A stretch of 64,000 nucleotides of DNA from Cliona cf. orientalis (lineage: Eukaryota; Porifera; Demospongiae; Clionaida; Clionaidae), in NCBI GenBank assembly GCA_963930775.1, contig OZ005698.1:1364001-1428000 (forward strand), written 5' to 3'. The notes under the pieces are model-generated. The model did no database searches. It was given only the letters and a program-made list of their open reading frames with translations, and was not told the DNA's origin. The translations under genes were made by a program, and so were the position numbers. Positions 9,499-63,575 of this stretch are shown one piece after another (position 1 is the first letter of the stretch; each line of letters begins with the position of its first letter).

Positions 9499-22731
<13,233 letters not shown>

Positions 22732-23235: not shown

Positions 23236-25502
23236 ATGGTCATGATGGAGCTGAAGTCTGCTGCTGCTGTTAAGCTTCTTGTAAATCTGGCCCTACTGTT
23301 CACAGTGTGTGCAGTTCTGCAGCCAGCTCTCATCCTATGTCGAGTACCGCCATCATCCTTCCGATTCTCCACCGCCGCTAGTAGATCTACGCCAATAATA
23401 TCAGTGAGAGGTCAATCTACTACTGTTGGAGGATCAGGACCAGGGAGCTGCCTCGTGGCAAACTGCTCAAAGACGGTCCTGGAGTGCTTGGCTGATGGAC
23501 AGTGCCTCAAGGCTGGCATGTGCAACGCCGGGTGCTCCAAGAAGGCAAACGTGGAGGGCTGCGATCTTCTCTGTGAGCTAACGTACGGCTACAATAGCAG
23601 CAAGTATCGCGAGCTGCTGCAGTGTATGAGTGAGCACGGCTGCTTACCCGTGTCCCCTCCCGATGGCGTCTGTCTCGCAAACGATACAGATACCGTCAAA
23701 AATCTCACGGACATGGCTCAGGTTTGCAACTGCATCCTCTTTGATGATAACATTAAGTTTAATGACGTCTATTATAATTAATAAAGATTGAAAAGGTGGT
23801 TAGCAATAATTGCATAATTTATTTTAGCCATGCACTGTATTATCATGCAATACTGGCACTAAAATTTATCCGTCACTTTTGCTGGGGAGCACAAAAATGG
23901 ATGTTATTGCTGTAGTTTAATATAAAGATAATATTACCAAGTTAAGGTGTACTTAACACATTCATGATATTAATTGCCCACATAATGCAGGTAAAGGGTA
24001 AATGGTGGATAATCCGTGGACTGAACTGCGGCCAGTCAGGGTGGCCTGCTGCTTTTGACTACTTCCCCTGCCAAAGGGACGAGTTTGTCATGGAGAATGG
24101 GAACTGGATTGACCACATTGCCTACTGTGGGGGCAGGAACAATACGTGTCAGACTCCAATGTGCCATACCGTTGCCAACGTCTCAATAACAAGTCCAGGG
24201 GTCATGACCCACTGGTGAGTAGTTATAGCTGTACCGTAGGTTGCAGATAAATATTGTGCTAAATTTGATAGTCTTTGCTATAATAATATTATATAAGCCA
24301 ATGAAGAATTCAATTTCATGGTGTAGTTTTTTCTAAGGTTTACTTTTTAAGCAATCAATTTTTTTGTGGGCTGATTATTCTTTATAGATGCGGTTATTTT
24401 GCATGATAGTGAGTATACTACTGTTCATGCAGGTATTCCACTGCAAGATTATTGATTTATGTAAATTCAACAACCATTCATCGGGCGGCTTTCTCTCTCT
24501 TCTCTCTTCTCACATGTATGTATATAGGTACACGGATCCTCCTCTGAAGCCTCGGATAGAGAAATGGCGTGTTCTCTCCTGGCCACATCCCGATTGGATG
24601 CTCTATATCTACTGTGGCTTCACCCCCACTGGCCCTTATGCAGGTGAGCTGCTTAATCATGGGAATTAAAAATTACATAATACCGTAAAGCAACATTTTT
24701 CTGCGTGAGTTTTATTTATGTGAATTATGCGAGTCAAGAGGTGGTCGCATAAATTTGTATCTGCATAAATAATAATTGTGCCATATGTTTGTAATGCATG
24801 CAACGTTTAAACGCATACATAAAAATTGCGTAAATTTTTCAAGAGGCCCGTTTTGACCGATTCGCATAATTTTTTCACGCGCAGAAAAATGTACCTTTAT
24901 GGTAATAGGGTTTTTTTCTAAAAGTTTTCCTGGACCAAAGGGGGGGGGGAGATTGGCATGCTTTAGAGCTCACAAAATTATATTGGTGTGAGATTACTTT
25001 GGAAAATCATGGATGTTGGCCACTTGATTATACACTATGTAAGAAATTTTGAAGGGGAGGGGCCAGGGACCCCCTCTTTGCCCTATTTAGAAAAACCCTG
25101 ATGGTGCTATATATTCAGTTTGTATAGATACTATGACATTGTATAAAACCGTAAGTCTGGAAATTTTCGTTGTAAAAATATTTTCGTAGTCGATGGCGGC
25201 TACGAAAATTAGCTAGCATGCACTAATGCAGTAAGGGGTTGTTCCTACGAAAATTTATCATACGAAAGTTTCTGTACATGGAATTTTCCAGATCTACAGT
25301 ATTATGCATGTGTATCATGTGCCCCAATGTAATTCAAAGTATGAAAACTACAATTTCAGGGGGTAGTGTTGTTACTCGAAGTGGAAGGAGTACCAGAGAT
25401 ATCCCTGCCTACGTTGAAAAGGAATTCAGAGTCACTGCTGCTCAGTTTGGCTTCAAATATGACACCATGTGTGTCAGCAATGTAACCAATTGCTCCGATT
25501 AA
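23236..25502 (+). CDS. Secreted violaxanthin de-epoxidase-like protein (Cys-rich plus lipocalin)
   Basis: Four exons keep frame: 23236-23721, 23991-24214, 24528-24643 and 25360-25502, giving 322 aa. The ATG at 23236 starts a signal peptide (VKLLVNLALLFTVCAVL); the frame is open a little further upstream but has no other ATG. Exon 1 continues with about 11 cysteines spaced as in the N-terminal Cys-rich domain of plant violaxanthin de-epoxidase (VDE). Exon 2 opens the lipocalin part with GKWWIIRGLN and FDYFPCQRDEF, the counterparts of plant VDE GKWYITSGLN and FDAFDCQLHEF. Exon 3 has the aromatic strands (WRVLSW, YIYCGFTPTGPYAGG) and exon 4 the end of the barrel. Plant VDE acts on xanthophylls in the thylakoid lumen; here an extracellular or secretory-pathway role is inferred and the substrate is unknown. 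Two residues of the plant FDC...H motif differ. Resemblance is judged by eye, so family membership is strong but enzymatic activity is uncertain. Confidence 0.8.
24681..24904. mobile_element. MITE-like element in the VDE-like gene intron
   Basis: Left end TACCGTAAAGCAACATTTTT and reverse-complemented right end TACCATAAAGGTACATTTTT form terminal inverted repeats, continuing CTGCG. About 224 bp, TA at both ends, no frame. It lies wholly inside the intron 24644-25359. Confidence 0.8.
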
Positions 25503-26088: not shown

Positions 26089-27447
26089 CTAATTCTGATC
26101 ATTGTCCTCAGAGCGCACCTCGGCCAATTTATAATACTTGCGTTTATGACCAAGAACACTGCCGCTGTCCTTACCATCAATCTGGAACAAAATCGAACTA
26201 GTCTCTTCCTCCTCCTCCAGTATTTTAATTTGGTGTCCTAGCCACTTTGATATGGTGTTGGGCATGGCTTTGTTGGAGTCAAAATTGCAGTCAGATAACC
26301 TGATGTTCTTGAACTTCACACACGTTTGGTCTATAGTAGCTGGATCAAAATCCAAATTGGTGTCCTGACTAACAGTTATGGTATCTGAATCAGCATCTTG
26401 ATTCTCCTCTGTTACGACGACAATATTGGTAAAAGAAAACTGGACTAACTGAGAGTGATTTGTTGGAGCGGACAAGTAAGCTGTGATAAGCTGGTTCAAG
26501 CTGGCCCGTGAAACTGTGTACTTTTCAGGGGTATCTACGCCATAATCTTCTTCAAGGTTATCCATGATCCCAGGCAATACCTTGAGTATTCGGAATTTAG
26601 ACCAAAATTCCCGACAAGTTGGTAGTCGCTCACAAAAGGCATCTAGGTCTAAACAGAAATAGTCACTCGTCACATTACAGCCTTGAAGAATGACCACCTG
26701 GAGGTTGGAGGCATTGTTGACAAGCTTCACAAGCCACTCAATGCATCTATTTTCGAACGGCTCACACTGAATACCAACATATTCTATCTCGCTAAGCAAG
26801 GACAAGTCGGCATCACGTATTTCCCAGTCATGATGAGGTTCCGTCAGTACTTGAGCCTCTGGGAGCATTTTTGGACGCTCACCATTAAAGGCACTCACAA
26901 TGGCATCAATAATGTCTTGCTCCTGCTTTTTGGTCAAACGCCATGAAGGTAGTTTCTCTATTTGTTGATAGCGGGGAGGATAGGTGAGCTGAACCCATCC
27001 ATCTCTGTCAAGCATTCTAACACTGTAGAGAAAGGAAAGGGCATCACATGGTCTACTCTTGTTTTCAAGAAAACCAAACTCATGATCGTCACCAAGGCAT
27101 CTACTCTCGTAGGCAGCTACTCGTCCATAGAGCCAGGCCTTGGAGTACTCAACCTCGTCGGGCCAACGCTCTGCAACGTACTGTTTGATATCACTGTCCT
27201 CTGTATATTTTACCACTGAAGCAGGATTCTCACATGGAAGCTTCCAGTATGCTGCCATGTCCAAGCCCTTGATGAAGTCTGTGCTTTCCAGCCCGCGTAG
27301 GCACACGTCAGCTATGGGCAACCGCCATAGTAGATCCCTGCGTATCGAGAGGGGAAGGAGGGAGAGGTGACTGATGGGAAACTCTTCAAGGTGTTTCACG
27401 ATGTAGTTCTTACACAGAGCAGCAAGAGGCTCCATAAAACGGGTCAT
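26089..27447 (-). CDS. Array paralogue 1: F-box-like N-terminus protein, 452 aa
   Basis: Uninterrupted single-exon frame from an ATG read on the minus strand. The N-terminus (LCKNYIVKHLEEFPISHLSL followed by LLPLSIRRDLLWRLPIADVC) has the LLP..LRxxLLxxLPxxDVC pattern of F-box-like motifs, suggesting but not proving a role as an SCF-type adaptor. The middle (SLLSEIEYVGIQC, NNASNLQVVILQGCNV, FRILKVLPGI) has leucine-rich-repeat-like spacing without a clear repeat register. The C-terminus is acidic (ILEEEEETSS) then basic (GHKRKYYK). No signal peptide, membrane helix or catalytic motif is seen. This is the most 3' copy of a five-gene tandem array. It reads GLESTDF where copies 2-5 read one residue fewer (LEGTDF or LENTDF). 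Single-exon structure in an intron-rich region suggests an ancestral retrocopy later amplified by duplication. Confidence 0.85.
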   Translation of the reverse strand: MTRFMEPLAALCKNYIVKHLEEFPISHLSLLPLSIRRDLLWRLPIADVCLRGLESTDFIKGLDMAAYWKLPCENPASVVKYTEDSDIKQYVAERWPDEVEYSKAWLYGRVAAYESRCLGDDHEFGFLENKSRPCDALSFLYSVRMLDRDGWVQLTYPPRYQQIEKLPSWRLTKKQEQDIIDAIVSAFNGERPKMLPEAQVLTEPHHDWEIRDADLSLLSEIEYVGIQCEPFENRCIEWLVKLVNNASNLQVVILQGCNVTSDYFCLDLDAFCERLPTCREFWSKFRILKVLPGIMDNLEEDYGVDTPEKYTVSRASLNQLITAYLSAPTNHSQLVQFSFTNIVVVTEENQDADSDTITVSQDTNLDFDPATIDQTCVKFKNIRLSDCNFDSNKAMPNTISKWLGHQIKILEEEEETSSILFQIDGKDSGSVLGHKRKYYKLAEVRSEDNDQN

Positions 27448-27526
27448 CGTGGACCTCGTCTTGATCTAGCTGGTTTGTTGTACGGTAATGGTCGCTAAAA
27501 TCTGACACCATGAGACCTATAATTAA

Positions 27527-27538
27527 TGCGCATGCGCA
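27527..27538. promoter_or_regulatory. NRF1-type palindrome upstream of paralogue 1
   Basis: Perfect palindrome TGCGCATGCGCA, the consensus of NRF1-family factors, 80 bp upstream of the paralogue 1 ATG. The same 12-mer precedes paralogues 2, 3 and 4 at similar short distances. Binding in this organism is inferred. Confidence 0.6.
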
Positions 27539-27745
27539 ACAGAGACAGGATATCGATCTCTTCACACCTTCTAGATCTTCCTTTTCACACACCGTGTAAT
27601 ATTTTGGTGTGTGCAAGTGCAAATAAAAGTGATGAATCGATGATACCTGCAAAGGACCCAGCATCAATTATTTTATTCCATAAAGTACATTATACGCACT
27701 TCACTAAAATAACATTAATTGTGTATATAATACATACATGTCTGC

Positions 27746-29113
27746 CTAATTGATTGGACCCTTGTCCTCAGAGCACACCTCAGCTACTTCACAATACTTG
27801 CGTTTATGACCAAGAACACTGCAGCTATCCTTATGATCAATCTGGAACAAAACCAAGCTAGTCTCTTCCTCCTCCTCCAGTATTTTAATTTGGTATCCTA
27901 GCCACTTTGATATCGTGTCAGGCGTGGCTTTGTTGGAGTCAAAATCGCAATCAGATAACCTGATATTCTTAAACTGCACACACGTTTGGTCTATAGTAGC
28001 TGGATCAAAATCTGAATTGGTGTCCTGACTAACGGTTATGGTATCTGAATCAGCATCTTGACTCTCCTCTGTTACGACGACAATATCAGTAAAAGAAAAC
28101 TGGACTAACTGAGAGTGATTTGTTGGAGCGGACAAGTAAGCTGTGATAAGCTGGTTCAAGCTGGCCCGTGAAACTGTGTACTTTTCGGGGGTATCTACTC
28201 CATAGTCTTCTTCGAGGTTATCCATGATCCCGGGCAATACCTTGAGTATTCGGAATTTAGACCAAAACGGCTGACAAGTTGCTAGCTGCTCACAAAAGGC
28301 ATCTAGGTCTAAACAGAAATAGTCACTTGTCACATTACAGCCTTGAAGAATGACCACCTGGAGGTTAGAGGCATTGTTGACAAGCTTGACGAGCCACTCA
28401 ATGCTTCTATTATCGAAGGGTCGACACTGAATACCAACATATTCTATCTCGCTAAGCAAGGACAAGTCGGCATCACGTATTTTCCAGTCGTGATGAGGTT
28501 CCGTCAGTACCTGAGCCTCTGGAAGCATTTTTGGACGCTCACCATTAAAGGCACTCACAATGGCATCAATAATGTCTTGCTCCTGCTTTTTGGTCAAACG
28601 CCATGAAGGAGGCTCTAGCAGTTTCTCCACTTGTTGATAGCGGGGAGGAAAGGTAAGTCGGTCCCATCCATCCCCGTGAAGCATTCTAACACTGTAGAGG
28701 AAGGTAAGGGCATCACATGGTGCACTTTGGTTTTCAGGAAGAATAAATTCGTGACTGTCACCAAGGCATCCGATCTCACAGGCGGCTACTCGTCCATAGA
28801 GCCAGGCCTTGGCGTACTCAACCTTGTTGGGCCAACGCTCTGCGACGTACTGCTTGATATCACTGTCCTCTGTATAATCCACCTCTGCAGCAGGATTCTC
28901 ACATGGAAGCTTCCAGTATGCTGCCATGTCCAAGCCTTTGATGAAGTCTGTGCCTTCCAGCCGTAGGCACACGTCGGCTATGGGCAACCGCCATAGAAGA
29001 TCCCTGCGTATCGAGAGGGGAAGGAGGGAGAGGTGACTGATGGGAAACTCTTCAAGGTGTTCCACGATGTAATTCTTACACAGCGCAGCAAGAGGCTCCA
29101 CAAAAAGGCTCAT
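27746..29113 (-). CDS. Array paralogue 2: F-box-like N-terminus protein, 455 aa
   Basis: Intact single-exon paralogue, nearly identical in layout to its neighbours: F-box-like N-terminus, tryptophan/tyrosine-rich middle (AAYWKLPCENP, ERWPNKVEYAKAWLYGRVAA), LRR-like stretch and acidic tail. It shares the HEFILPENQSAPCDAL block with paralogue 5 rather than the HEF(S)FLENKS block of paralogues 1 and 3. That indicates gene conversion or a nested duplication history. A minus-strand AATAAA lies about 70 bp after the stop (27672-27677). An NRF1-type palindrome sits 43 bp upstream of the ATG. Molecular function unknown. Confidence 0.86.
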   Translation of the reverse strand: MSLFVEPLAALCKNYIVEHLEEFPISHLSLLPLSIRRDLLWRLPIADVCLRLEGTDFIKGLDMAAYWKLPCENPAAEVDYTEDSDIKQYVAERWPNKVEYAKAWLYGRVAACEIGCLGDSHEFILPENQSAPCDALTFLYSVRMLHGDGWDRLTFPPRYQQVEKLLEPPSWRLTKKQEQDIIDAIVSAFNGERPKMLPEAQVLTEPHHDWKIRDADLSLLSEIEYVGIQCRPFDNRSIEWLVKLVNNASNLQVVILQGCNVTSDYFCLDLDAFCEQLATCQPFWSKFRILKVLPGIMDNLEEDYGVDTPEKYTVSRASLNQLITAYLSAPTNHSQLVQFSFTDIVVVTEESQDADSDTITVSQDTNSDFDPATIDQTCVQFKNIRLSDCDFDSNKATPDTISKWLGYQIKILEEEEETSLVLFQIDHKDSCSVLGHKRKYCEVAEVCSEDKGPIN

Positions 29114-29155
29114 CGTGGACGGTTTGTTGTACGGTAATGGTCGCCACAGATCTGG

Positions 29156-29167
29156 TGCGCATGCGCA
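29156..29167. promoter_or_regulatory. NRF1-type palindrome upstream of paralogue 2
   Basis: TGCGCATGCGCA lies 43 bp upstream of the paralogue 2 start, just beyond the conserved GGTAATGGTCGCC element. Confidence 0.6.
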
Positions 29168-29353
29168 ATAGTGCTACACACGTGTACTTGGTCTTATGCC
29201 CAAAATAATTATTAATGGGCCTGCAAGACATGACATTTCCATTTCTATTTCCATACACTGGATCTCTTCACACCTTCTAGATCTTTCTTTTCATGCATAC
29301 CATGTAATATCGTGGTGTGTGCAAGTGCAAATAAAAATGATGAATCATTGATA

Positions 29354-29808
29354 GGGGTAGCTAATTTTTTGGCCTATAATGCTATTCTCCAATGCTCAAA
29401 AAAATTCCTAATAATGCTCCAGAAGTACACCTATAATTCCCAATACATTGCCCATCATGCTCAAGTTGAACTGACTATATTATTATAACAAAACTGATGT
29501 GAGACATGAGGAGATTCGGTTATACTATCATAGAGTTCAGCCATTTCAATTTTACAATATCATATTATTATTATGTTCAGATTCGAATGTGGGTACCAGT
29601 GATTGATCAACCCTTTACAAGTCCATAATATTTCGTCCAGACGTTGTGACAAAGGTCAATTAACAGCTAGTACTGGCAATTGTGTGCCCTAATTAATATT
29701 CTCAAAATTATGCCAGTTGATGCCTACAATGCTAGCATAATTCTCAAAATTAATGCTTACACACACCTATTATGCTCAAAATTATGCTGGCATAATTTAC
29801 TTATCCCT
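29354..29808. mobile_element. Insertion element between paralogues 2 and 3
   Basis: About 455 bp flanked by direct repeats AATCATTGATA (29343-29353 and 29809-29819). Ends are weak inverted repeats (GGGGTAGCTAA versus GGGATAAGTAA). It contains repeated ATTCTCAAAATTA/ATGCTCAAAATTATGC strings. The homologous spacers near 33085 and 34710 lack it. Confidence 0.82.
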
Positions 29809-29915
29809 AATCATTGATACCTGCAAAGGGCCCAGTATCAATTTTTTCTATAAAGTATTATAATAATTACTCCACTACAATTTTGTGCATAATAATTATA
29901 TACGTATATGTCTGA

Positions 29916-31283
29916 CTAATTGATTGGATCATTGTCCTCAGAGTGCACCTCAGCCACTTCACAATACTTGCGTTTATGACCAAGAACACTGCAGCTGTCC
30001 TTACGATCAATCTGGAACAAAATCGAACTAGTCTCTTCCTCCTCCTCCAGTATTTCAATTTGGTGACCTAGCCACTTTGATATCGTGTCAGATGTGGCTT
30101 TGTTGGAGTCAAAATCGCAATCGGATAACCTGATGTTCTTAAACTGCACACACGTTTGGTCTATAGTAGCTGGATCAAAATCCAAATTGGTGTCCCAACT
30201 AACAGTTATGGTATCTGAATCAGCATCTTGACTCTCCTTTGTTATGACAATATTGGTAAAAGAAAACTGGACTAACTGAGAGCGATTTGTTGGAGCAGAC
30301 AAGTAAGCTGTGATAAGCTGGTTCAAGCTGGCCCGTGAAACTGTATATTTTTCGGGGGTATCTACGCCATACTCTTCTTCGAGGTTATCCATGATCCCAG
30401 CCACTACCTTGAGTATTCGGAATTTAGACCAAAATGGCCGACAAGTTGCTAGCCGCTCACAAAAGGCATCTAGGTCTAGACAGAAATAGTCACTTTTCAC
30501 ATTACAGCCTTGAAGAACGACCACCTGGAGGTTAGAGGCATTGTTGACAAGCTTCACAAGCCACTCAATGCATCTATTTTGGAAGGGTTCACACTGAACA
30601 CCAACATATTCTATCTCGCTAAGCAAGGATAAGTCAGCATCACGTATTCTCCAGTTGCGATAAGGTTCTGCCAGTACCTGAGCCTCTGGGAGCATTTTTG
30701 GACGCTCACCATTAAAGGCACTCACAATGGCATCAATAAGATCTTGCTCCTGCTTTTTGGTCCGCGGACGCCATGAAGGAGGCTCCAGTAGTTTCTTCAC
30801 TTGTTGATAGCGGGGAGGATAGGTGAGTTGAACCCATCCATCTCTGTGAAGCATTCTAACACTGTAGAGAAAGGAAAGGGCATCACATGGTGCACTCTTG
30901 TTTTCAAGAAAACTAAACTCGTGACCAGTACCAAGGCATCCACTCTCATAGGCAGCTACTCGTCCATAGAGCCAGGCCTTGGAGTACTCAACCTTGTCGG
31001 GCCAACGCTCTGCAACGTACTGCTTGATATCACCGTCCTCTGTATAATCCACCTCTGAAACAGGAATCTCACATGGAAGCTTCCAGTATTCTACCATATC
31101 CAAGCCTTTGATGAAGTCTGTGCCTTCCAGCCGTAGGCACACGTCGGCTATGGGCAACCGCCATAGTAGACCCCTGCGCATCCAGAGTGGAAGGAGGGAG
31201 AGGTGGCTGATGGGAAACTCTTCAATGTGTTGCACGATGTAGTTCTTACACAGTGCAGCAAGAGGCTCCATAAAATGGCTCAT
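29916..31283 (-). CDS. Array paralogue 3: F-box-like N-terminus protein, 455 aa
   Basis: Intact single-exon paralogue. The frame is open for a further 41 codons upstream (to 31406), but the start is placed at 31283. There the sequence becomes MSHFMEPLAALCKNY, matching the starts of paralogues 1, 2 and 4, while the upstream extension is low-complexity (ARIIIEKKIIIIS) and not conserved. It carries RPRTKKQEQDLIDAIVSAFN where the others read RLTKKQEQDIID. A palindromic TGCGCATGCGCA lies 155 bp upstream. Its 3' flank is separated from paralogue 2 by an extra element of about 455 bp that the other intergenic spacers lack. Function unknown. Confidence 0.85.
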   Translation of the reverse strand: MSHFMEPLAALCKNYIVQHIEEFPISHLSLLPLWMRRGLLWRLPIADVCLRLEGTDFIKGLDMVEYWKLPCEIPVSEVDYTEDGDIKQYVAERWPDKVEYSKAWLYGRVAAYESGCLGTGHEFSFLENKSAPCDALSFLYSVRMLHRDGWVQLTYPPRYQQVKKLLEPPSWRPRTKKQEQDLIDAIVSAFNGERPKMLPEAQVLAEPYRNWRIRDADLSLLSEIEYVGVQCEPFQNRCIEWLVKLVNNASNLQVVVLQGCNVKSDYFCLDLDAFCERLATCRPFWSKFRILKVVAGIMDNLEEEYGVDTPEKYTVSRASLNQLITAYLSAPTNRSQLVQFSFTNIVITKESQDADSDTITVSWDTNLDFDPATIDQTCVQFKNIRLSDCDFDSNKATSDTISKWLGHQIEILEEEEETSSILFQIDRKDSCSVLGHKRKYCEVAEVHSEDNDPIN

Positions 31284-31437
31284 CGTGGACGTCGTGTAGC
31301 TGGTTTGTTGTACGTACGGTAATGGTCGCCTCTTGGTAAGACTTATTATTATTATTTTTTTCTCTATAATAATTCTTGCTTTTAGCAAAGCACACATGAA
31401 GAGCAAAACTGCTAAATCCTAGCATGCATATAATTAG

Positions 31438-31449
31438 TGCGCATGCGCA
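31438..31449. promoter_or_regulatory. NRF1-type palindrome upstream of paralogue 3
   Basis: TGCGCATGCGCA lies 155 bp upstream of the paralogue 3 start. The larger spacing comes from extra T/A-rich sequence around 31340-31430. Confidence 0.55.
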
Positions 31450-33090
31450 ACAGGGCTTTACACTGGATCACGCTTGGCTGATCTCATGGCTGACCTCTTC
31501 ACACTTACTTTTCATACATCATCGTTTTATGGAACCTCTTGCTGCGTGTGATTAGTCTTATTTACGAATGAGGATTCGCTATTGCACACCTGCGAGACTA
31601 TGCCCCCTGTCAAACTCTGATCATTATGGTGAATAAGAAGGTTTATAAACTCAGGTGCAAGACCAAGGGCCGAAAAATCTGGAGGTATATAATATTATGG
31701 TGATTGGGACAGTGCCTGTGAGGCTATTGATGAAACAGATTAATTGGGATTCGATAATAATTATGACTGAAAACATTGATGATGCTTGGGAAGCTTTGCT
31801 ACAGCAATTTATGCCAATTATGAAATCAATAATAATTATTGTTCTCTGCAAAAATTTAAATACGTGTAGATGCAACCTGCTATGGCTCACAAAGTCTCTT
31901 ATTAAATAACGAAATCTGCTTTATAAAAGAACAAAGAAATCAGCTTGTCCACAATAAGACTCTAGACTAGCAGACATATGATCAGCTAAACTTGCTGTTC
32001 AACCAATCAATAATTATTATTTGTGCCTGAATACCATCCCTATGGAAAAAATTATCGTTCATGTCCCAAAAACACTACACCAACCAATTATTTTTGTCCA
32101 ATCTCTATCATCGGCAAACTCCTGGAAAGGTGTATACATTTATTCACTAATTCTGCACCACCTGCAATCAAATGACAACCTCTAGCTCAATGGACATGGC
32201 CTCCTTAATTTCCCCAACGCTCAAATTAATTTTTGGAATCTGTTGGAACAATAATGCTGTAACAGCATCATCATACAATTAAGTCTTTTATGCAAACTGT
32301 TAGCAAGCAATTAATTATTTGACTTATTGCTCTCATTTTGTTACGCGTAACAGGGTTCTATCTAGAAATTTTGGTTTGGGGTGGAAGGGGGCGTGGCACT
32401 TTCACGCACAGTCCCCTCCTCCAAACCATTAAATATTAGTTAGACACTGGTTAGGAGGTTTCTGTGTCATTTAGAACACTGAAGGACTCCATAATATAGA
32501 ATCCCGAGCGAAGCGAGGGTTCTATGAGAGCCCTGAGGTCTTCTAAATCATATAAAAACCGACTAAACAGTGTCTAACAAGTTTAGATCATAATATATAG
32601 CTTTGTATTGCTAGAGCCAGAGGGCAAAACTTGTAGGTGACTATGAAAATATTGTAGGTGACTATGAGATATAGATACCTGTCAGTAGCCAATCAAATTG
32701 CAGTATTTGTACATGTTGCAGCTATGATCTAATTGGTATTTGTGGGTTTTAGGTATAACATGTATACTCTTTGACATAATTCAGAAGAATGCTATTTACA
32801 TATATCTCAAATAGTATACGTTCCCCACCTCCTCCCTCTCTCTCCCTCTCTCTTTTTTGTCTTGCTACTCTTCTTTGGGGGAGAAGCTGGGTGCTTTGGG
32901 GGGGAAGCTTCCCCCCTGCCCCCCCCCCCCCCCCTATGGATAGAACCCTGCGTAATATAACTGGGGTACGCACTTGCATTATAGCTCGAGTAGCTATTGC
33001 GTGTCCATTGCATAGAAAAATATCACCATATAATAATATTATTGTGGTGTGTGCGAGTGTAAATTAATTTTAATACAAGTGATGAATCAA
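31450..33090. other. Long spacer between paralogues 3 and 4
   Basis: About 1.6 kb more than in the other spacers and no supported gene. It holds a hairpin element, CT-rich and G/C homopolymer tracts (32831-32935) and AT-rich DNA. It ends where the conserved 3' flank of the array resumes. Confidence 0.5.
32439..32578. mobile_element. Hairpin-forming MITE-like element
   Basis: GTTAGACACTGG at the left pairs with CAGTGTCTAAC at the right. The centre has a near-palindrome (AGAATCCCGAGCG facing AAGCGAGGGTTCT). 140 bp, no frame. Confidence 0.6.
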
Positions 33091-33207
33091 TGATTCATTG
33101 ATACCTGCAAATTAAAGGGCCCAGCATCATCTATAATAATAATTATTGTTGTTATTATATGCACTTCACTAAAATAATGATATGTGTATACATAGCTACA
33201 TGTTCGA

Positions 33208-34578
33208 CTAATTGATTGGATCACTGTCCACCTCGGCCACTTCACAATGTTTGCGTTTATGACCAAGAACACTGCAGCTGTCCTTATGATCAATCTGGAA
33301 CAAAATCGAACTAGTCTCTTCCTCCTCCTCCAGTATTAAATTTTTAATTTGGTGTCCTAGCCACTTTGATATTGTGTCGGGCGTGGCTTTGTTGGAGTCG
33401 AAATCACAATCGGATAACCTGATGTTCTTAAACTGCACACACGTTTGGTCTATAGTATCAAAATCCAAATTGGTGTCCTGACTAACAGTTATGGTATCTG
33501 AATCAGCATCTTGACTCTCCTCTGTTATGACGACAATATCAGTAAAAGAAAACTGGACTAACTGAGAGTGATTTGTTGGAGCGGACAAGTAAGCTGTGAT
33601 AAGCTGGTTCAAGCTGGCCCGTGAAACTGTGTACTTTTTGGGAGTATCTACGCCGAAGTCTTTCTGTAGGTCATCGAAGATCCCGGGTACTACCTTGAGT
33701 ATTCGGAATCTGGACCAAAATTCCCGACAAGTTGGTAGTCGCTCACAAAAGGCATCTAAGTCTAAACAGTAATAGTTCTTTTTCATTATCACATTACAGC
33801 CTTGAAGAACGACCACCTGGAGGTTGGAGGCATTGTTGACAAGCTTCACAAGCCACTCAATGCTACTTTCATCGAAGGGATCACACAGAATACTAATATA
33901 TTCTATCTCACTAAGCAAGGACAAATAGTCATGATGAGGTTGTTTTAGTGCCCGAACCTCTGGGAGCATTTTTGGACGCTCACCATTAAAGGCACTCACA
34001 ATGGTATCAATAACGTCTTGCTTTTGCTTTTTGGTCAGACGCCATGAAACAGGCCGCTCCAGTAGTTTCTCCACTTGTTGATAGCGGGGAGGAAAGGTAT
34101 TAAGTTGAACCTGCCCATCTCTGTGAAGCATTCTATCACTGTAGAGAAAGGAAAGGGCATCACATAATACACCGGGGTTGTTTTCAAAATAACCAAACTC
34201 GTGAGTGTCACCAAGGCATCCACTCTCAGCGGCGTAGGCAGCTATCCGTCCATAGAGCCAGGCCTTGGCGTACTCAACCTCGTCGGGCCAACGCTCTGCG
34301 ACGTACTTTTTGAGATCACTATCCTCTCTATAGTCCACCTCTGAAACAGGAATCTCACGGCATGGAAGCTGCAAGTCCCAGTATGCTGTCATGTCCAAGC
34401 CTTTGATGAAGTCTGTGTTTTCCAGCCGTAGACACACGTCAGCTATGGCCAACCGCCATAGTAGATCCCTGCGCATCCAGAGTGGAAGGAGGGAGAGGTG
34501 GCTGATGGGAAACTCTTCAAGGTGTTCCACGATGTAGTTCTCACACAGCGCAGCAAGAGGCTCCACAAAACGGCTCAT
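33208..34578 (-). CDS. Array paralogue 4: F-box-like N-terminus protein, 456 aa, most divergent
   Basis: Intact single-exon copy but the most diverged of the five. It has several in-frame insertions and deletions against the others: extra residues in AYWDLQLPCREIP, AAYAAESG and NVIMKKNYYCLDL, and loss of the IRDADL segment before SLLSEIEYI. All indels are multiples of three, so the frame is under selection or the copy is young. The F-box-like N-terminus (RRDLLWRLAIADVC) and the acidic C-terminus are kept. An NRF1-type palindrome lies 70 bp upstream. Function unknown. Confidence 0.85.
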   Translation of the reverse strand: MSRFVEPLAALCENYIVEHLEEFPISHLSLLPLWMRRDLLWRLAIADVCLRLENTDFIKGLDMTAYWDLQLPCREIPVSEVDYREDSDLKKYVAERWPDEVEYAKAWLYGRIAAYAAESGCLGDTHEFGYFENNPGVLCDALSFLYSDRMLHRDGQVQLNTFPPRYQQVEKLLERPVSWRLTKKQKQDVIDTIVSAFNGERPKMLPEVRALKQPHHDYLSLLSEIEYISILCDPFDESSIEWLVKLVNNASNLQVVVLQGCNVIMKKNYYCLDLDAFCERLPTCREFWSRFRILKVVPGIFDDLQKDFGVDTPKKYTVSRASLNQLITAYLSAPTNHSQLVQFSFTDIVVITEESQDADSDTITVSQDTNLDFDTIDQTCVQFKNIRLSDCDFDSNKATPDTISKWLGHQIKNLILEEEEETSSILFQIDHKDSCSVLGHKRKHCEVAEVDSDPIN

Positions 34579-34647
34579 CGTGGACGTTGTGTAAGTTTTC
34601 GTATGGTAATGGTCGATACAGATCTGACACCTCTCAGTAAGACTTAG

Positions 34648-34659
34648 TGCGCATGCGCA
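34648..34659. promoter_or_regulatory. NRF1-type palindrome upstream of paralogue 4
   Basis: TGCGCATGCGCA lies 70 bp upstream of the paralogue 4 start. Confidence 0.6.
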
Positions 34660-34805
34660 ATAGTGCTATACATCACACCGCAGTGTGTGCAAGTGCAAAT
34701 AAAATTAATGAATCATTGACACCTGCAAAGGGCCCAGCATCAATTTTTCTATAAAGTACAATATAAATTTTACGTACTTCACTACATACATACATACATG
34801 CCTGA

Positions 34806-36176
34806 CTAATTATTGATTGGATCATTGTCCTCGGAGCGCACCTCGGCCACTTCACAATACTTGCGTTTATGCCCAAGAACACTGCAGCTGTCCTTATGAT
34901 CAATCTGGAACAAAATCGAACTAGTCTCTTCCTCCTCCTCCACTATTTTAATTTGGTGTCCTAGCCACTTTGATATTGTGTCGGGTGTGGCTTTGTTGGA
35001 GTCAAAATCGCAGTCGGATAACCTGATGTTCTTAAACTGCACACATGTTAACGTTTGGTATAATATTATAGTAGCTGGATCAAAATCCAAATTGGTGTCC
35101 TGACTAACAGTTATCCTATCTGAATCAACATCTTGACTCTCCTCTGTTACGATGACAATGTCGGTAAAAGAAAACTGGACTAACTGAGAGTGATTTGTCG
35201 GAGCGGACAAGTAAGCTGTGATAAGCTGGTTCAAGCTGGCCCGTGAAACTGCGTACTTTTCGGGAGTATCTACGCCATACTCTTCTTCGAGGTTATCCAT
35301 GATCCCAGGCACTACCTTGAGTATTCGGAATTTGGACCAAAATGGCCGACAAGTTGCTAGCCGCTCACAAAAGGCATCTAAGTCTAAACAGCTATACTCA
35401 CTCGTCACATTATAGCCTTGAAGAACGACCACCTGGAGGTTGGAGGCATTGTTGACAAGCTTCACAAGCCACTCAATGCTTCTATTATCAAAGGGTCGAC
35501 ACTGAATACCAACGTATTCTATCTCACTAAGCAAGGACAAGTCAGCATCACGTAACCCACACCCGTGATGAGGTTCCGTCAGTACCTGAGCCTCTGGGAG
35601 CATTTTTGGACGCTCACCATTAAAGGCACTCACAATGGCATCAATAATGTCTTGCTCCTGCTTTTTGGTCAAACGCCATCTAGGAGGCTCCAGCAGTTTC
35701 TCCACTTGTTGATAGCGGGGAGGAAAGATAAGTCGATCCCATCCATCCCCGTGAAGCATTCTAACACTGTAGAGGAAGGTAAGGGCATCACATGGTGCAC
35801 TTTGGTTTTCAGGAAGAATAAATTCGTGACCATCGCCAAGACATCCAATCTCGCAGGCAGCTACTCGTCCATAGAGCCAGGCCTTGGAGTACTCAACCCT
35901 GTTGGGCCAACGCTCTGCAACATACTGCTTGATATCACTGTCCTCTGTATATTCCACACCTGCAACAGGATTCTCACATGGAAGCTTCCAGTATGCTGCC
36001 ATGTCCAAGCCTTTGATGAAGTCTGTGCCTTCCAGCCGTAGGCACACGTCGGCTATGGGCAACCGCCATAGTAGACCCCTGCGCATCGAGAGGGGAAGGA
36101 GGGAGAGATGGCTGACGGGAAACTCTTCAAGGTGTTCCACGATGTAGTTTTCGCAAAGCTGAACAAGACACTCCAT
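34806..36176 (-). CDS. Array paralogue 5: F-box-like N-terminus protein, 456 aa
   Basis: Intact single-exon copy at the 5' edge of the array. It starts MECLVQLCENYIVEHLEE, lacking the RFMEPLAA-type first residues of its relatives. It has an in-frame insertion (PATIILYQTLTCVQF versus PATIDQTCVQF), apparently a small TA-rich insertion in the DNA. Unlike the other four it has no perfect NRF1-type palindrome near its start, so its promoter probably differs; the nearest similar site is a one-mismatch copy near 36716. It shares the ILPENQSAPCDAL block with paralogue 2. Function unknown. Confidence 0.84.
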   Translation of the reverse strand: MECLVQLCENYIVEHLEEFPVSHLSLLPLSMRRGLLWRLPIADVCLRLEGTDFIKGLDMAAYWKLPCENPVAGVEYTEDSDIKQYVAERWPNRVEYSKAWLYGRVAACEIGCLGDGHEFILPENQSAPCDALTFLYSVRMLHGDGWDRLIFPPRYQQVEKLLEPPRWRLTKKQEQDIIDAIVSAFNGERPKMLPEAQVLTEPHHGCGLRDADLSLLSEIEYVGIQCRPFDNRSIEWLVKLVNNASNLQVVVLQGYNVTSEYSCLDLDAFCERLATCRPFWSKFRILKVVPGIMDNLEEEYGVDTPEKYAVSRASLNQLITAYLSAPTNHSQLVQFSFTDIVIVTEESQDVDSDRITVSQDTNLDFDPATIILYQTLTCVQFKNIRLSDCDFDSNKATPDTISKWLGHQIKIVEEEEETSSILFQIDHKDSCSVLGHKRKYCEVAEVRSEDNDPINN

Positions 36177-37053
36177 ATCGTTGATTTTATGGTAATGGTA
36201 GTTTGTTGGGCTATATATAGGTCAAAGATCACCAATCAAATTACGCAATTGTGCATTCATCCGGACCCTTCTATTATTAAATTCTGTGGTAATGGAGGTG
36301 TTAAAATTAAATATTCAGGGCCTCGTTTTGTGATTTTATAGGATGGCTGGTCTCATAACATTATGAAACTAGAGCTCTGTAGAGCACATACCCCGTGCAC
36401 ATATTGCGCAATCTATAGAATTACTTTCGATGCATGGCTATAATTTTGTGAACTTGAGTGGAAATGCTGCTTAGTTGTCCCGGTGACACTTGAAACAACA
36501 CTCTCTGCACCCAGACCTAGCCCAGACTGGGAAGACATGAACCTCTACCTATATTTTATTGTAATAATAGTATAGCTATCTTACATAGTGATTGGTTCCA
36601 TAATAATTATTATGGTTCCATGGGCAGACTTCAGTCACTTGAGACGTCACGAGCATTATTTAGAACATCACCGGACGATCTTTACCAGTCATACACTTAG
36701 CCACTTAGTCAGTTGTGCGCATGAGCAGAAAGCACATTGGGCGGCGTTGGCTACGGTCCACTATTTGTCACATTCCATTCTGTATTGACATCTATTTATT
36801 GTATGCTCGAGCTTTCTATATTATATTAAATTTTTTATATTGTGGTCCGATCACGTGCGCTTTTAATACAAATTATATGGATATCATGCCAATATTTTTA
36901 TGGTCATGTAAAGTGTTGTACATGTAATGAGAGTATAAAACTTAATGCATGCATGCAAAAAAATAAATTGATAGCAGCTATGTTGACAGATCTAGATGCA
37001 AGTATAAATAATATTATTATTATTGAAGCGTTTACCGTTAATATAAACAGCTT
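36177..37053. other. Spacer between paralogue 5 and the PhyH-like gene
   Basis: AT-rich with no supported gene. It contains a one-mismatch NRF1-like site (TGCGCATGAGCA, 36716-36727) and a GGTAATGG box at 36191. Confidence 0.45.
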
Positions 37054-41061: not shown

Positions 41062-47714
<6,653 letters not shown>

Positions 47715-58000: not shown

Positions 58001-61000
58001 GTTCTTTCTCTCTCTCTCCCTCTCTCTCTCTCCCCCTCCCTCCCTCTCCTCTTCTCCTTCTCTCCCTCTCCAGGTCTTGCAATCTCGTACATTCACTCTT
58101 GGAAAACGTAAGCCACCCTGCATCACCTGCACATGTGCACCACATACAGTCAGCATGCAGCTTCATAATATTTTAATCTGACATTTGAGCTTGCTTCTCC
58201 CATTGTTACTTGATATGGTTAGAAGGCAGCACCTCTAGGTCACAACAGATGCCTCATAGTCTGTAAACTTTTATCCATTTCTAATTAGATACACGATCCC
58301 AGTCACTTTCATGGTTACGGCTTAATTGAATACGTGATATTATGGTAACTCTAGCATCTAATATTTCCGTGTGTGTGAAATATATAGTATACTGTGTCGC
58401 ATGCATTACGTTGCTGACTGCATGTGGTGAGTATGTACATGTGTACGTACATGTACATGTATGTAGCTTTGCGTGACTTAATTATATAATACACCAACAG
58501 ATACCACATGCATGTACACATGCATGTCCATGTACATACATACATGCATACTTTCCTTGCAAACACTCACCTCCCTCCCCCTCCCCCTCCCCCCACACCC
58601 TCACATACCCACACACCACATCACACAGACACTGATGAGACAACCGCTCGAGAGTTTGTCAATCCCTACCAGCTCGAGGCGGAGTCGTCGTCGGACGAGG
58701 ATGAAGAGCTTAACTCCCTCCAGCTCTGCAACAAGACTCCCTCTCCGGATCCCCCTGCTGCCGCTGCAGCCTCTACGATCTTCCCTCCGCCCATCTCCTT
58801 TGTCGACAAGCCCCACCTACAGCAGGCCCTTCAGCGCCCCTCCGCGTACAAGCCGGCAGCTTCGAGTACGTTCCCACGTTCAATATCACCCTCGGATGCC
58901 ATGCAAGACTTTCGTGGACGCTCGGATTCGGATGAGCCGATTGGTCGGAAGCTGGAGCCTCTCGGAGATCGAGAGGACGGGAAGTCGAAGGGGTTTTTGC
59001 GTCGCGGTGCCATGTCGACGAAGGATAAGGACAGGTATGAGTCTTCACGGAGGAAGGTGATTGGTTCAGTTGAGAGTGCTCGCGGGAACAGTATAGATTC
59101 GACGTCGCCACCCTCGGCAGGAAGCCCCGCCCATCGAGGAGCACGAAACAACCCCCCAACAGCTTTTCATCCAACAAGCCAGCCATCATCCAGCGCTGGT
59201 GCTGCGTCTGGTGATATAGCAGAACAACTTCGTAGACAGCTTGCCAATCCACCTCCCACTCGCCCCCCTCCACAGCTAGTATCTGGAGAACCGCCTTTCG
59301 ATCAGAGCAGCACTGTTGAAGTTCATGTTGAACCACCGACTCCAAAGATTCAGAAAACAGCTGCTGTCGTTAGGAGGAGGAAGAAGGAAAAAGAGGAGAG
59401 GGTAAGGCCACTCGAGGATGAGTTCAAGAAGGTAGCTGTGGCTCCAACCTCCTCTCAGCAACCGCTCCCACCACCCAGCAAGAAGCCACCCGTTCTCTCG
59501 TCCTCTCCTGGTGATGAATTTAAGAAAGTCAACATCACGACTGAAAGTAGTGCTACTACGGGAGGAGCTGCTGCTAGTACTAGTACTAGTAAGCCTCCAC
59601 CTCCAAACAAACCGGCCCCCATTCCAGAATCTGATGAATTTCACAAAGTCACTCATAAGATTGGTGGTGTTGCAGGTGAAGGTGCTGCGGCTACAAGTGC
59701 TAAGCCTCCTCCACCCAGCAAACCAGCTCCCGTTCCAGAATCAGAAGAGTTCGCAAAGGTCACTGCTAAGGCTAAGCCTCCACCTCGAGTTGCTCCCTCA
59801 GAGGATGGTGAGTCACGTAAAGTCGATACCACACGCAGTAGTACGGACTCACCTTCAAGAAAGCTACCAGTGATCCCTCCTTCTGTGGGTGAATTCCGTA
59901 AGGTGCACCCAAAACCAGCCGAAGCCAAGAAGCCTTCTCCCCCACCTCCTGTTGCTGACGAATTTCGAAAAGTTCATCCCAAACCAGCCGAGAGTAAGAA
60001 AGTTTCTCCCCCACCACCCCCATTGGACGAATTTCGTAAAGTTCACCCTAAGCCAGTTGAGGTCAAGAAGGCTTCCCCACCCCCTCCTGCTTTGGATGAA
60101 TTCCGCAAGGTTCACCCCAAACCAGTCGAAACGAAGAAGGTGTCTCCCCCACCACCCTCTTTGGACGAATTCCGTAAGGTTCATCCCAAACCAGCCGAGG
60201 TCACAAAGGCTTCCCCACCGCCTCCTGCTTTGGACGAATTTCGTAAAGTTCACCCCAAACCTGAGAAGACCTCCCCCCTACCGCCTTCTCAGGTGGAAGG
60301 GGTCACTACTGCCAAGCCTGTCGATGTGAAAAAGCCCATACCCCGGCCCAGGGCAGACATTGATGAATTCCGAAAGGTGAGTGCCAAGCAGCAAACGCCT
60401 CCACCCTCTCTTCCTAGTAGCGAACCAGCCACTGTTTTTGAGCCCCCTGTCCAGGAAAGTCCAAGACGTGTGCCTGAGGTGACTCCAAGGTCTAAACTGC
60501 CAAGAAGTGACGATGACAATAAGAGTATTGTATCGACCAGCTCACTGGCTTCTCAGTCGAGCAGAAGCACAGCCCCGAGTGAGTCACCTTCTCACGATCA
60601 CTCTCCTGATCAATTAGACATCCGATCAAGAAGGGGCTTACCCACTCGTCAAGGAGAGATCGATGCCGACGACCAGCCGATGCAGCGTTTCCGTACCAGG
60701 TCTGGAGCGATGAAACCCAACGTCCAGAGACGACAGCGATCTGGTAGCCCTACTTCTGCTCATGCAGATACGATTCAACAACACCACACACCACCACCGT
60801 CACAGCCAGCAGAGTCGCGAGAGGCCTTCATTGAAGACGACTCGGAAGATTTTCAGCCGAGGGTTCGTACCAGGTCTGGAGCGGTCGATTCTCGCATGAC
60901 ACCGCGAGGAAAGAGCCCAGGTACCAGCAGTACCGATAGCATCAGTAGTAGAGGTGGGAGTATAGAGCCGAAAGATTCGCTGAAACAGCAGCGTCGGGCA

Positions 61001-63575
61001 GTCCTGGATCGCAGAAGCAGCCAGGAGGAGAGCACTGGATCGAGCGATGATATCTCACAGCCTCGGTCACGGACAAGGTCACGAGCTTTCCACGGGAGGC
61101 AACCGTCTAACCGAGGAAGACAACAGGAGAAGGAGGATCTTACTGCATCTGCTCCCCCACTTGCCTCTACTGCTGAGCTTGAGGAGGATGCCCCTTCTCA
61201 TCATCCCAGAATGCGTACGAGATCACGAGCTTTCCACGGTGACTCCCAACGTCCAAAGAAGTTCACCCGTACCCCTTCCCCTCGGGCCTTCGAAGCGTCA
61301 CAAAGTATGCCTGACCCCCAGGCCTCCCTCGAGTTACCTCACTCGCGTCCGAGGTCATCTTCCATTGGCCAGAGAAGCCTACAGCGTGATATAAGTTCAG
61401 GCCGTACTTCACCCGGCCCTAAGCCTGATGGTGAGCAATAGGCTGCTTCTATAAAGTTAATAGAGGCTGTCGATCAGTATTAAATTCTGTTTTGAAACAC
61501 ATGATGTCATGAATCAGTAAATTTTTATAACTTTGATATGCTGCACTGAATTTGAAATCCAATACACACAGTACAGGAAGAGAAGTATAATAATGTATAG
61601 GCTTTTGTGAGTGTGAATTTTATAATTTTTGTAAAATTTTGAGTGTGCAACTCTTTGTAAAAAGATCATGCAGATTCTCTACATGTCAAAGTTTGTGTGT
61701 GTGTGTGTGATAGTGTGTGGGTGTGGCTGTATGTGATATGCTGTACAGAAGCTGTAGCTAGCTTTTGATGCGGTGTCTGCATGCAGCCATTATGTACCAA
61801 CTTGTGCCACATTTGCGTGTGTCCAAACAGAAAGTTAGTTTGAATTTCTTTTTTCTTTAAGATCTCTATTGAATATATATTATTTAAAACGCGCTGAATA
61901 AACTCTGCCTGTATACACAGGGGCCTTTGGATCGGTGGAGCTGGAAATGGAGTACGCGGAGAGCGAGAATCTGCTGAAAGTGACCATTGCGAGGTGCAAG
62001 GTGAGCCGAGTTGCGCAACAGCGGCGCTAATAGTGCATATTGTATGCCGTGCGCGCTAACATAACTATAGCACTGGGCAGCGCAGGATGGTTGGGCGTAA
62101 GTTTTTGCGTCGATTAGCGAACCTGGCATGTGTCAACAATTCTTGATCAGTCACGCCCATTAATCGCTAATTAACACGCATGCGCAATAACAAAATTCCG
62201 CATGCAAAATCATTCATGTGGTAATCTGGTATGTATTGTATTGTATGTAGGGATTGCGAGCTATGGACGGTAATGGTTTCTCTGATCCTTATGTCAAGCT
62301 CTTCCTGCTACCCGGAAACAGAATAGTAAGTTGCTACAACCACTCTAATGAATGTTTAGATTACAGCCATGTAAATATTTAACTTGGTCTTTCGTTTGTT
62401 GTAGCACAAGTTCCAAACTAGAACTGTTTATAAGAACCTGGACCCAGTCTTTGATGAGACATTCAGCTTTTACAGCGTCTCCATGGAGGCAATGAAAACA
62501 AAACAACTCTGGTGAGTCATGCCTTAAAAAAAAAATGTGTTGACGACCCTTTACCTGTTCAAACCCTGCCTCCCACACTACCACATTACAGGAGTGTATA
62601 TAATTGAATAATATATTTTAATCACATCTGTTTCTGCATGAAAGAGCTACCCCATATCATACCACAATACTTTGCTCATAATTAACAACTCTCCTTCAAA
62701 ATCCAATACACGACTGAAATGCCCGGTCCTTGAAATTTAATATGCATGATCATTATCTTTTGTTCTAACTCTTCCTGTTCAGTTTGATAGTGATGGACTA
62801 CGATGAGTTCTCGGCTGATGATTTCATTGGAGGCACTCGAGTGAAGCTCTACGAGGTGCTCTACGCTCAGTCACACAAGATCAACATTAGAAGGCTATTG
62901 GACGATAATATCGTAAGCCCCCTATAATATGCCCTACCTTCTATATATAGCTCTGTATTAAATTCATGTCGTGTTTCCTGGAATTAGACATCTATTATCA
63001 AAATCCTTGGATTCCCCATTAAAATTCCAGAGTACTACGTTTAAAAACAATGCTAAAATGTCCTACCGTTCATACATTACTTCCCTTGGAGAAAGCATGC
63101 ATAGACTGATGTCCTATTAACCTTTCCAATGGGGTAATAATTATTATGCTCTGCAGTTGCTATGATACTCTTTTGTGCTGCTCAATGATTGGTCACGGAC
63201 ATGATCGTCATTAAAATTGCAATGCCAATAAGTGTGTTTAGCTTCAGTACAAACTATACCAATTCGTTCCAGTGTACATGTTTGTGGTTAACTTTGGCAA
63301 TTAAGTTTTAATCAGCATAATATTAAATACACCCTTATTGAGGAGATGTAATTACATCCGTAGGGGACTCTTTTGAACACTGGATATTAGAATATTATTA
63401 CTTTTGCTTGGCACAGGTGGCACACACTGCGATGGAGGACAAGACTAGAGGTAGAGTTCAACTGACCTTCTCCTACTCCATGGAGAAACAGATGTTCAGT
63501 GTCTACGTCGACAAGGCTGACCGCCTCGTACCAGACAGCACCAAGGGACACTGTGACCCTTACGTTAAATGGTAT

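Follow-up and report, generated by a model that had tools for sequence, protein, structure and literature searches.

Violaxanthin de-epoxidase (VDE) adjusts light-protecting pigments in plants and algae. The VDE family is described in photosynthetic eukaryotes, and a 2026 review calls its origin an open question (PMC13181403). According to a survey from 2008, a Cys-rich domain joined to a lipocalin is found only in chlorophyll b- or c-containing photosynthetic eukaryotes, Cys-rich domains are present in several protists, and VDE is taken as the ancestral form of the family (PMC2483416). In Arabidopsis VDE ten conserved Cys are numbered, with gaps of 4-6-5-5-3-8-3-14-6, and all ten are described as highly conserved in VDL and VDR, in which Glu replaces Asp-177 (PMC13181403). 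The same review portrays VDL1 and VDL2 of diatoms, Nannochloropsis and haptophytes as a Cys-rich domain with a VDE lipocalin, with Glu-177, W179 and Y198 and a reduced or absent Glu-rich domain; in the case of VDR, from plants and algae, Glu at 177 goes together with a kept Y198.

In the open-licence literature, mentions of VDE in animals are an oyster EST and the Manila clam, either doubted or passing. The first is a VDL of Crassostrea virginica, for which the authors themselves suspected contamination (PMC2483416). The second is a VDE gene family of Ruditapes philippinarum, known by description from one line of a genome paper, which gives the family for the Manila clam only among four molluscs (PMC5499747). 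No animal case is contained in the sections of PMC7539987 covered here, nor in the main text of the HGT compendium PMC13342648, where violaxanthin is not mentioned. Likewise, no title on VDE in sponges was found in the open-licence literature, a scope that leaves aside closed journals, preprints and database annotations (InterPro, UniProt).

The gene described here comes from a stretch of 64,000 nucleotides, hereafter the window, which corresponds to positions 1364001-1428000 of contig C10 in a sponge genome of 216.8 Mb and 149 contigs. The gene lies on the plus strand at 23236-25502, and its four exons splice into a single open frame of 322 aa. In the splice model, exon 1 (23236..23721, +) comprises the start codon, a hydrophobic N-terminus and an 11-Cys domain, i.e. 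the VDE N-terminal domain. Intron 1 (23722..23990, +; 269 bp, phase 0) lies close to where the Cys-rich domain gives way to the lipocalin domain. It is followed by exon 2 (23991..24214, +), in which the alignment locates lipocalin motif I (VKGKWWIIRGLN) and FDYFPCQ with the equivalents of D114 and Q119. After intron 2 (24215..24527, +; 313 bp, phase 2), exon 3 (24528..24643, +) carries a Glu at the position of D177 and the equivalents of W179 and Y198, a placement that was the same in several alignments. Intron 3 (24644..25359, +; 716 bp, phase 1) contains a MITE, and exon 4 (25360..25502, +) holds the end of the lipocalin domain, the last two Cys and the stop codon, without a Glu-rich tail. 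The three introns, as many as the initial annotation had proposed, are all of the GT-AG type, and their GC content is 0.31-0.36 (0.31 in intron 1) versus 0.52 in the coding sequence.

The initial annotation, made from the sequence of the window, had read this gene as VDE-like, with an 11-Cys domain followed by a lipocalin. This architecture was recovered in the spliced protein, where 11 Cys fall within the Cys-rich stretch at residues 72-146, and GKWWIIRGLN and FDYFPCQRDEF are located C-terminal to it in the proposed order, that of plant VDE. The proposed signal peptide stands in so far as residues 14-34 form a hydrophobic stretch; this stretch could also be an anchor.

The HMM search that had been suggested as a check of this reading placed the spliced protein in the VDE family. 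Among 24,736 Pfam models scanned with hmmscan, VDE (PF07137) was matched with an E-value of 1.1e-24 and 87.7 bits, at a curated cut-off of 25.7 bits, over positions 2-239 of the 242 of the profile, and the protein ends 8 residues past this match. No other Pfam family was matched at E<=1 and no NCBIfam family in a profile scan, and membership in a different lipocalin family was thus rejected. In a phmmer search of PDB sequences, Arabidopsis VDE (3CQN) came first with a weak E-value of 0.16 over the lipocalin. BLASTP against a partly approximate reference sequence of Arabidopsis VDE gave 1e-5 over the Cys-rich domain and motif I, so that direct similarity of the window protein to this enzyme is weak when taken alone. 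Because AlphaFold predictions for the intact protein and the two gene pieces from contig C11 described below reached a pLDDT of only 34, the lipocalin fold is here inferred from sequence. Altogether, we regard it as almost certain that the window gene truly belongs to the VDE lipocalin family, as a spliced animal gene with the fused Cys-rich and lipocalin architecture, and that it is one of three such loci.

The initial annotation treated the window gene alone and thereby missed two further copies. Searches of the host genome with the VDE profile and two protein queries revealed three VDE loci in all, namely the window gene and two on C11. The second locus (C11:5182200-5183102, minus strand) is an intact ORF in one exon, 301 aa long when counted from the chosen Met and 326 aa from the first Met. 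Its protein matched Pfam VDE with an E-value of 1.1e-34 (120.5 bits) and the crystal sequence of Arabidopsis VDE (PDB 3CQN) with 6.8e-10 over the lipocalin. The third locus (C11:8793908-8794793, plus strand) has no introns in its coding part and is interrupted by a single frame break at about position 8794525 of C11, where eight G follow one another between two open stretches. This break is either a sequencing error or the sign of a fresh pseudogene; it was left unrepaired and the two pieces were analyzed separately, with E-values of 3e-19 and 1.8e-10 against Pfam VDE.

The two C11 copies are about 50% identical to each other. At codon positions 1/2/3, identity between them was 58/72/34% over 196 codons and 58/78/43% over 90 codons, and because the third position is the least identical, these copies appear to be under selection on the protein. 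N-glycosylation sequons were found in the window protein (8), the intact C11 protein (7) and the long and short pieces of the third gene (6 and 1); together with the hydrophobic N-termini they fit secretion of the VDE-family proteins.

Next to the Pfam score, the spacing of the cysteines is the second line of evidence for the family. The gaps are 4-6-5-5-3-8-3-16-5 in the window protein, and 4-6-5-5-3-17-3-14-7 and 4-6-5-5-3-17-3-14-5 in the C11 proteins, so that each of the three agrees with Arabidopsis VDE in 7 of 9 gaps. In 200,000 shuffles per domain, not one reached 7/9; together with the Pfam score this excludes a chance likeness.

To describe the active site, the lipocalin domains were aligned to 3CQN, with the offset checked against residues named in PMC13181403. 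The equivalents of D114, Q119, W179, Y198 and G200 are kept in all proteins or pieces that cover them. All three proteins carry Glu at position 177, and in the case of the window protein two further alignments agree. F123 is kept in two of the three proteins and D98 in the C11 proteins only, while T112, D117, H121, R138, F155, H168, D206 and Y214 are not kept. Regarding the positions of the pH switch, H121 is Asp or Leu, D117 is Pro and Y214 is Val or Leu, with D114 kept. The window protein does not keep Q153 (two alignments); in the intact C11 protein the state of this position depends on the alignment, being Gln in two alignments and not Gln in a third. The Glu-rich C-terminal tail is absent, the last 60 aa of the window protein containing 2 Glu.

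Among animal proteins, crustacyanin and retinol-binding protein would share the lipocalin fold class with the proteins described here, in the sense that the VDE fold is known from 3CQN and is carried over to the latter by sequence. Crustacyanin and retinol-binding protein lack a Cys-rich domain, and no Pfam family except VDE was matched by the window protein at E<=1. In comparison with Arabidopsis VDE (PF07137; 3CQN/3CQR), the domain order, 7 of 9 Cys gaps, D114, Q119, W179 and Y198 are alike. In contrast to it, the animal proteins carry Glu for D177, do not keep H121, D117, H168, D206, Y214, R138 and F155, are uncertain at Q153, lack the Glu-rich tail and come from an organism without thylakoids. 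Because of Glu-177, the lost pH-switch residues and the missing tail, they are family members but not VDE proper; that they are of the Glu-177 type of VDL and VDR had escaped the initial annotation.

In their active site and tail, the animal proteins look most like VDL. They differ from it in their hydrophobic N-terminus, putatively secretory where VDL has a plastid targeting peptide, in their N-glycosylation sequons and in their origin from an animal genome without a plastid; furthermore, the lipocalin domains of diatom VDL are larger (PMC2483416). The combination of Glu-177 and Y198 is found in VDL and VDR alike and does not separate the two. The VDR first found has no Pfam VDE signature and diatom VDRs have other Cys positions (PMC2483416), whereas the animal proteins match the Pfam VDE profile and have the Cys spacing of VDE. 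The contrast in Cys is not firm, because the passages of PMC2483416 and PMC13181403 on the Cys of VDR disagree.

We read the animal proteins as candidate secreted lipocalin enzymes of the VDL type. In the best explanation that we can offer, to which we give about an even chance, such an enzyme would act on a dietary epoxy-carotenoid or a like epoxide, and the window protein is probably active. To our knowledge, a secreted animal reductase of carotenoid or lipid epoxides would be a new activity for animals. In detail, the protein would be routed into secretion, and on this route disulfides would lock its Cys-rich domain. A hydrophobic epoxide, most probably an epoxy-carotenoid that comes with algae or microbes in the diet, would then be bound in the lipocalin barrel. 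This epoxide would be protonated by the acidic side chain at position 177, here Glu, and a reductant, probably ascorbate, bound near the equivalents of D114, Q119 and Y198 would open it by reduction; alternatively, the epoxide may be rearranged, as in the action of algal VDL1 on violaxanthin. An acid and oxidising lumen, such as an endosome, a food vacuole or a secretory granule, would replace the thylakoid lumen. The absence of the pH-switch residues suggests an enzyme that, unlike thylakoid VDE, is ungated by pH. Since F155 is changed, and in the window protein Q153 too, the substrate may differ from violaxanthin.

Several gene families that touch on this chemistry were searched in the host genome. 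The ALO domain is a domain of ascorbate-synthesis oxidases, and nine matches to it, at the level of the domain and not of a particular enzyme, were found on C1 and C13. The squalene/phytoene synthase profile gave two partial matches only, one that we take, from its motif, to be squalene synthase, and another that is a fragment of 36 positions. Animals obtain carotenoids from food, and because of these two partial matches as the sole ones, the carotenoids would be dietary in this case as well. For sponges, uptake of carotenoids from food (PMC12654638) and the occurrence of GULO (PMC4396506) have been reported. Squalene epoxidase exons are present. Matches to RPE65/carotenoid oxygenase numbered 14 on C16, 13 of them over the cut-off, and RPE65 matches lie in three places of this contig (712174-719819, 772144-775288 and 3389183-3391569).

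C16 also harbors clusters of single-exon cathepsin-L-type peptidase genes (190354-197654 and 4848102-4863163), and an intron-split cluster is found on C19 (4508728-4535937). Silicatein, which would mark a sponge, was looked for among these genes. In the cathepsin-L loci examined, a subset of 116 matches, the active site residue was Cys and not Ser wherever the motif was found, many loci being without the pattern, and this subset speaks neither for nor against a sponge.

The sequences allow for other functions. Crustacyanin and retinol-binding proteins are animal lipocalins that act as carriers outside cells, and the proteins described here may likewise lack catalytic activity, whether it was lost or never present, and carry carotenoids or lipids extracellularly for color, light protection or defence. 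The changed F155 and the absent pH-switch residues are consistent with such a binding protein, as is the fact that most lipocalins are carriers (PMC13181403). However, the acidic residue at 177, W179, Y198, D114 and Q119 are kept across copies that are 24% identical, which a mere carrier need not do, and we therefore consider a binding function unlikely. Conservation of these catalytic residues, with F155, which contacts the carotenoid, changed (as is Q153 of the window protein), would also suit the same enzyme chemistry on an epoxide other than a carotenoid, i.e. a sterol, terpenoid or fatty acid from the animal or its symbionts. The squalene epoxidase exons and a P450 gene some 1 kb away from the intact C11 copy point in this direction, although such proximity is weak evidence. 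As the characterised family members named in PMC13181403 act on carotenoids, we hold this substrate to be unlikely. The secreted enzyme acting on dietary epoxy-carotenoids or like epoxides remains our preferred reading.

A question that precedes function is whether the genes belong to the animal at all, all the more as the oyster EST was regarded as a contaminant by the authors who found it (PMC2483416). The MITE in intron 3 (24680..24906, no strand assigned), which the initial annotation had described as local in type, is 227 bp long and has inverted ends. Among 40 scored of 257 candidates in the host genome, the query copy and 39 others are near full length with 88-93% identity, so that at least 39 other copies attest its dispersal; the scored copies are spread over 16 contigs, with four short end matches besides. 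The three VDE loci are separate and lie on contigs of 9.8 Mb (the window contig) and 9.5 Mb (C11). Exons of Vps41, Ras and the P450 already mentioned lie no more than 10 kb from the intact C11 gene, and within 10 kb of the third gene are two Death domains, a kinase-like end of 25 residues that scores below the Pfam cut-off, and an ORF of 1756 aa with Chlamydia-PMP-type repeats. A profile search for light-harvesting proteins found no match in the host genome, whereas the control search was positive in Synechococcus. The Wnt family is found in animals only, and Wnt matches at three loci of the host genome, with at least ten exon matches, agree with the animal-type genome that had been assumed. 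A set of three Wnt genes would fit a sponge; this and the character of the neighboring genes serve as pointers and not as tests.

In the window itself, the statement that the gene sits between animal genes is weakly supported. None of 15 ORFs scanned had a Pfam family above cut-off, and scans of the three plus-strand frames over 12.6-22.5 kb and 44.3-54.2 kb gave nothing above cut-off except a FERM central domain (44794..45243, +; PF00373, E 6.4e-11), which may span an intron. This match, about 19 kb downstream of the VDE gene, is the only scanned neighbor above a Pfam cut-off, and the animal setting is thus carried by the Wnt genes at the genome level. Taken together, the MITE within the intron, the Ras, P450 and Death-domain neighbors on C11 and the absence of light-harvesting matches uphold the assignment of the gene to the host and not to an alga. 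Contamination of the VDE loci is very unlikely and, to the extent that the assembly is reliable, refuted; an algal contaminant or an assembly chimera is hardly credible.

Within the host genome, the genes may have been kept from an ancient eukaryotic family or acquired by an old transfer; both are compatible with the data, and a transfer is compatible with every functional reading given above. One or two VDL-type genes could have come from an alga taken up as food or symbiont (diatom, haptophyte or dinoflagellate), since described relatives are nearly all algal or plant (PMC13181403, PMC2483416, PMC7539987), Glu-177 and the absent Glu-rich tail are VDL features, and both C11 copies are without coding introns, one with a frame break. 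Against it speak the three introns and the host MITE of the window gene. Lipocalin identity is 24% between the window and the intact C11 protein (157 columns), and versus Arabidopsis VDE it is 27% for the window protein (130 columns) and 25% for the C11 protein (131 columns). The window and C11 lineages have thus diverged from each other as much as each has from the plant, which disfavors a single recent transfer; an old family, two transfers or rapid change remain as explanations. Overall, an ancient transfer is plausible, and we put it somewhat below an even chance. A prokaryotic or viral origin was rejected, as no relative was found in phage and plasmid collections, nor in three scans of viral and two of prokaryote contigs, which work by short peptide patterns and would miss distant relatives.

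As Glu is found at position 177 in animals, VDL and VDR, Glu may be the older residue and the Asp of VDE the newer one. A more far-reaching and somewhat unlikely proposal is that VDE predates photosynthetic eukaryotes, having been a secreted Glu-177 enzyme of early heterotrophs that handled epoxides in acid digestive compartments, which animals keep for dietary algal carotenoids. If so, algae would have moved the enzyme into the plastid, the xanthophyll cycle would have arisen through the addition of Asp-177, a pH switch and a Glu-rich tail, and the oyster and clam sequences, despite the doubts, would be real. In any case, the finding of three loci on large contigs in an animal contradicts the claim, as worded in the 2008 survey, that the joined domains are limited to photosynthetic eukaryotes (PMC2483416). 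With these loci the origin of the family becomes testable, and photosynthesis may not account for its full age or for the breadth of its use.

Some further open frames were observed around the three genes. The 1756-aa ORF with Chlamydia-PMP-type repeats is a single ORF at L007:4212-9479 (+), upstream of the third VDE gene, and a 611-aa reverse-transcriptase-like ORF lies at L006:3647-5479 (+) near the intact C11 gene, with 26.7 bits for RVT_1 at a cut-off of 29.6. In the window, five similar tandem open frames of 458-500 aa, counted from stop to stop, occupy 26089-36221 on the minus strand and share a LEEFP.SHLSLLPL-like stretch or near variants of it; the one that was scanned has no Pfam family, and they look like a locally expanded gene family. 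A proline-rich open frame of 983 aa without a Pfam family (58490-61441, +) contains many DEFRKVHPKP-like repeats. Finally, long CT/GA simple repeats at about 15750-16120, 19640-20090 and 41590-41980 of the window read as runs of Ser-Leu or Arg-Glu.
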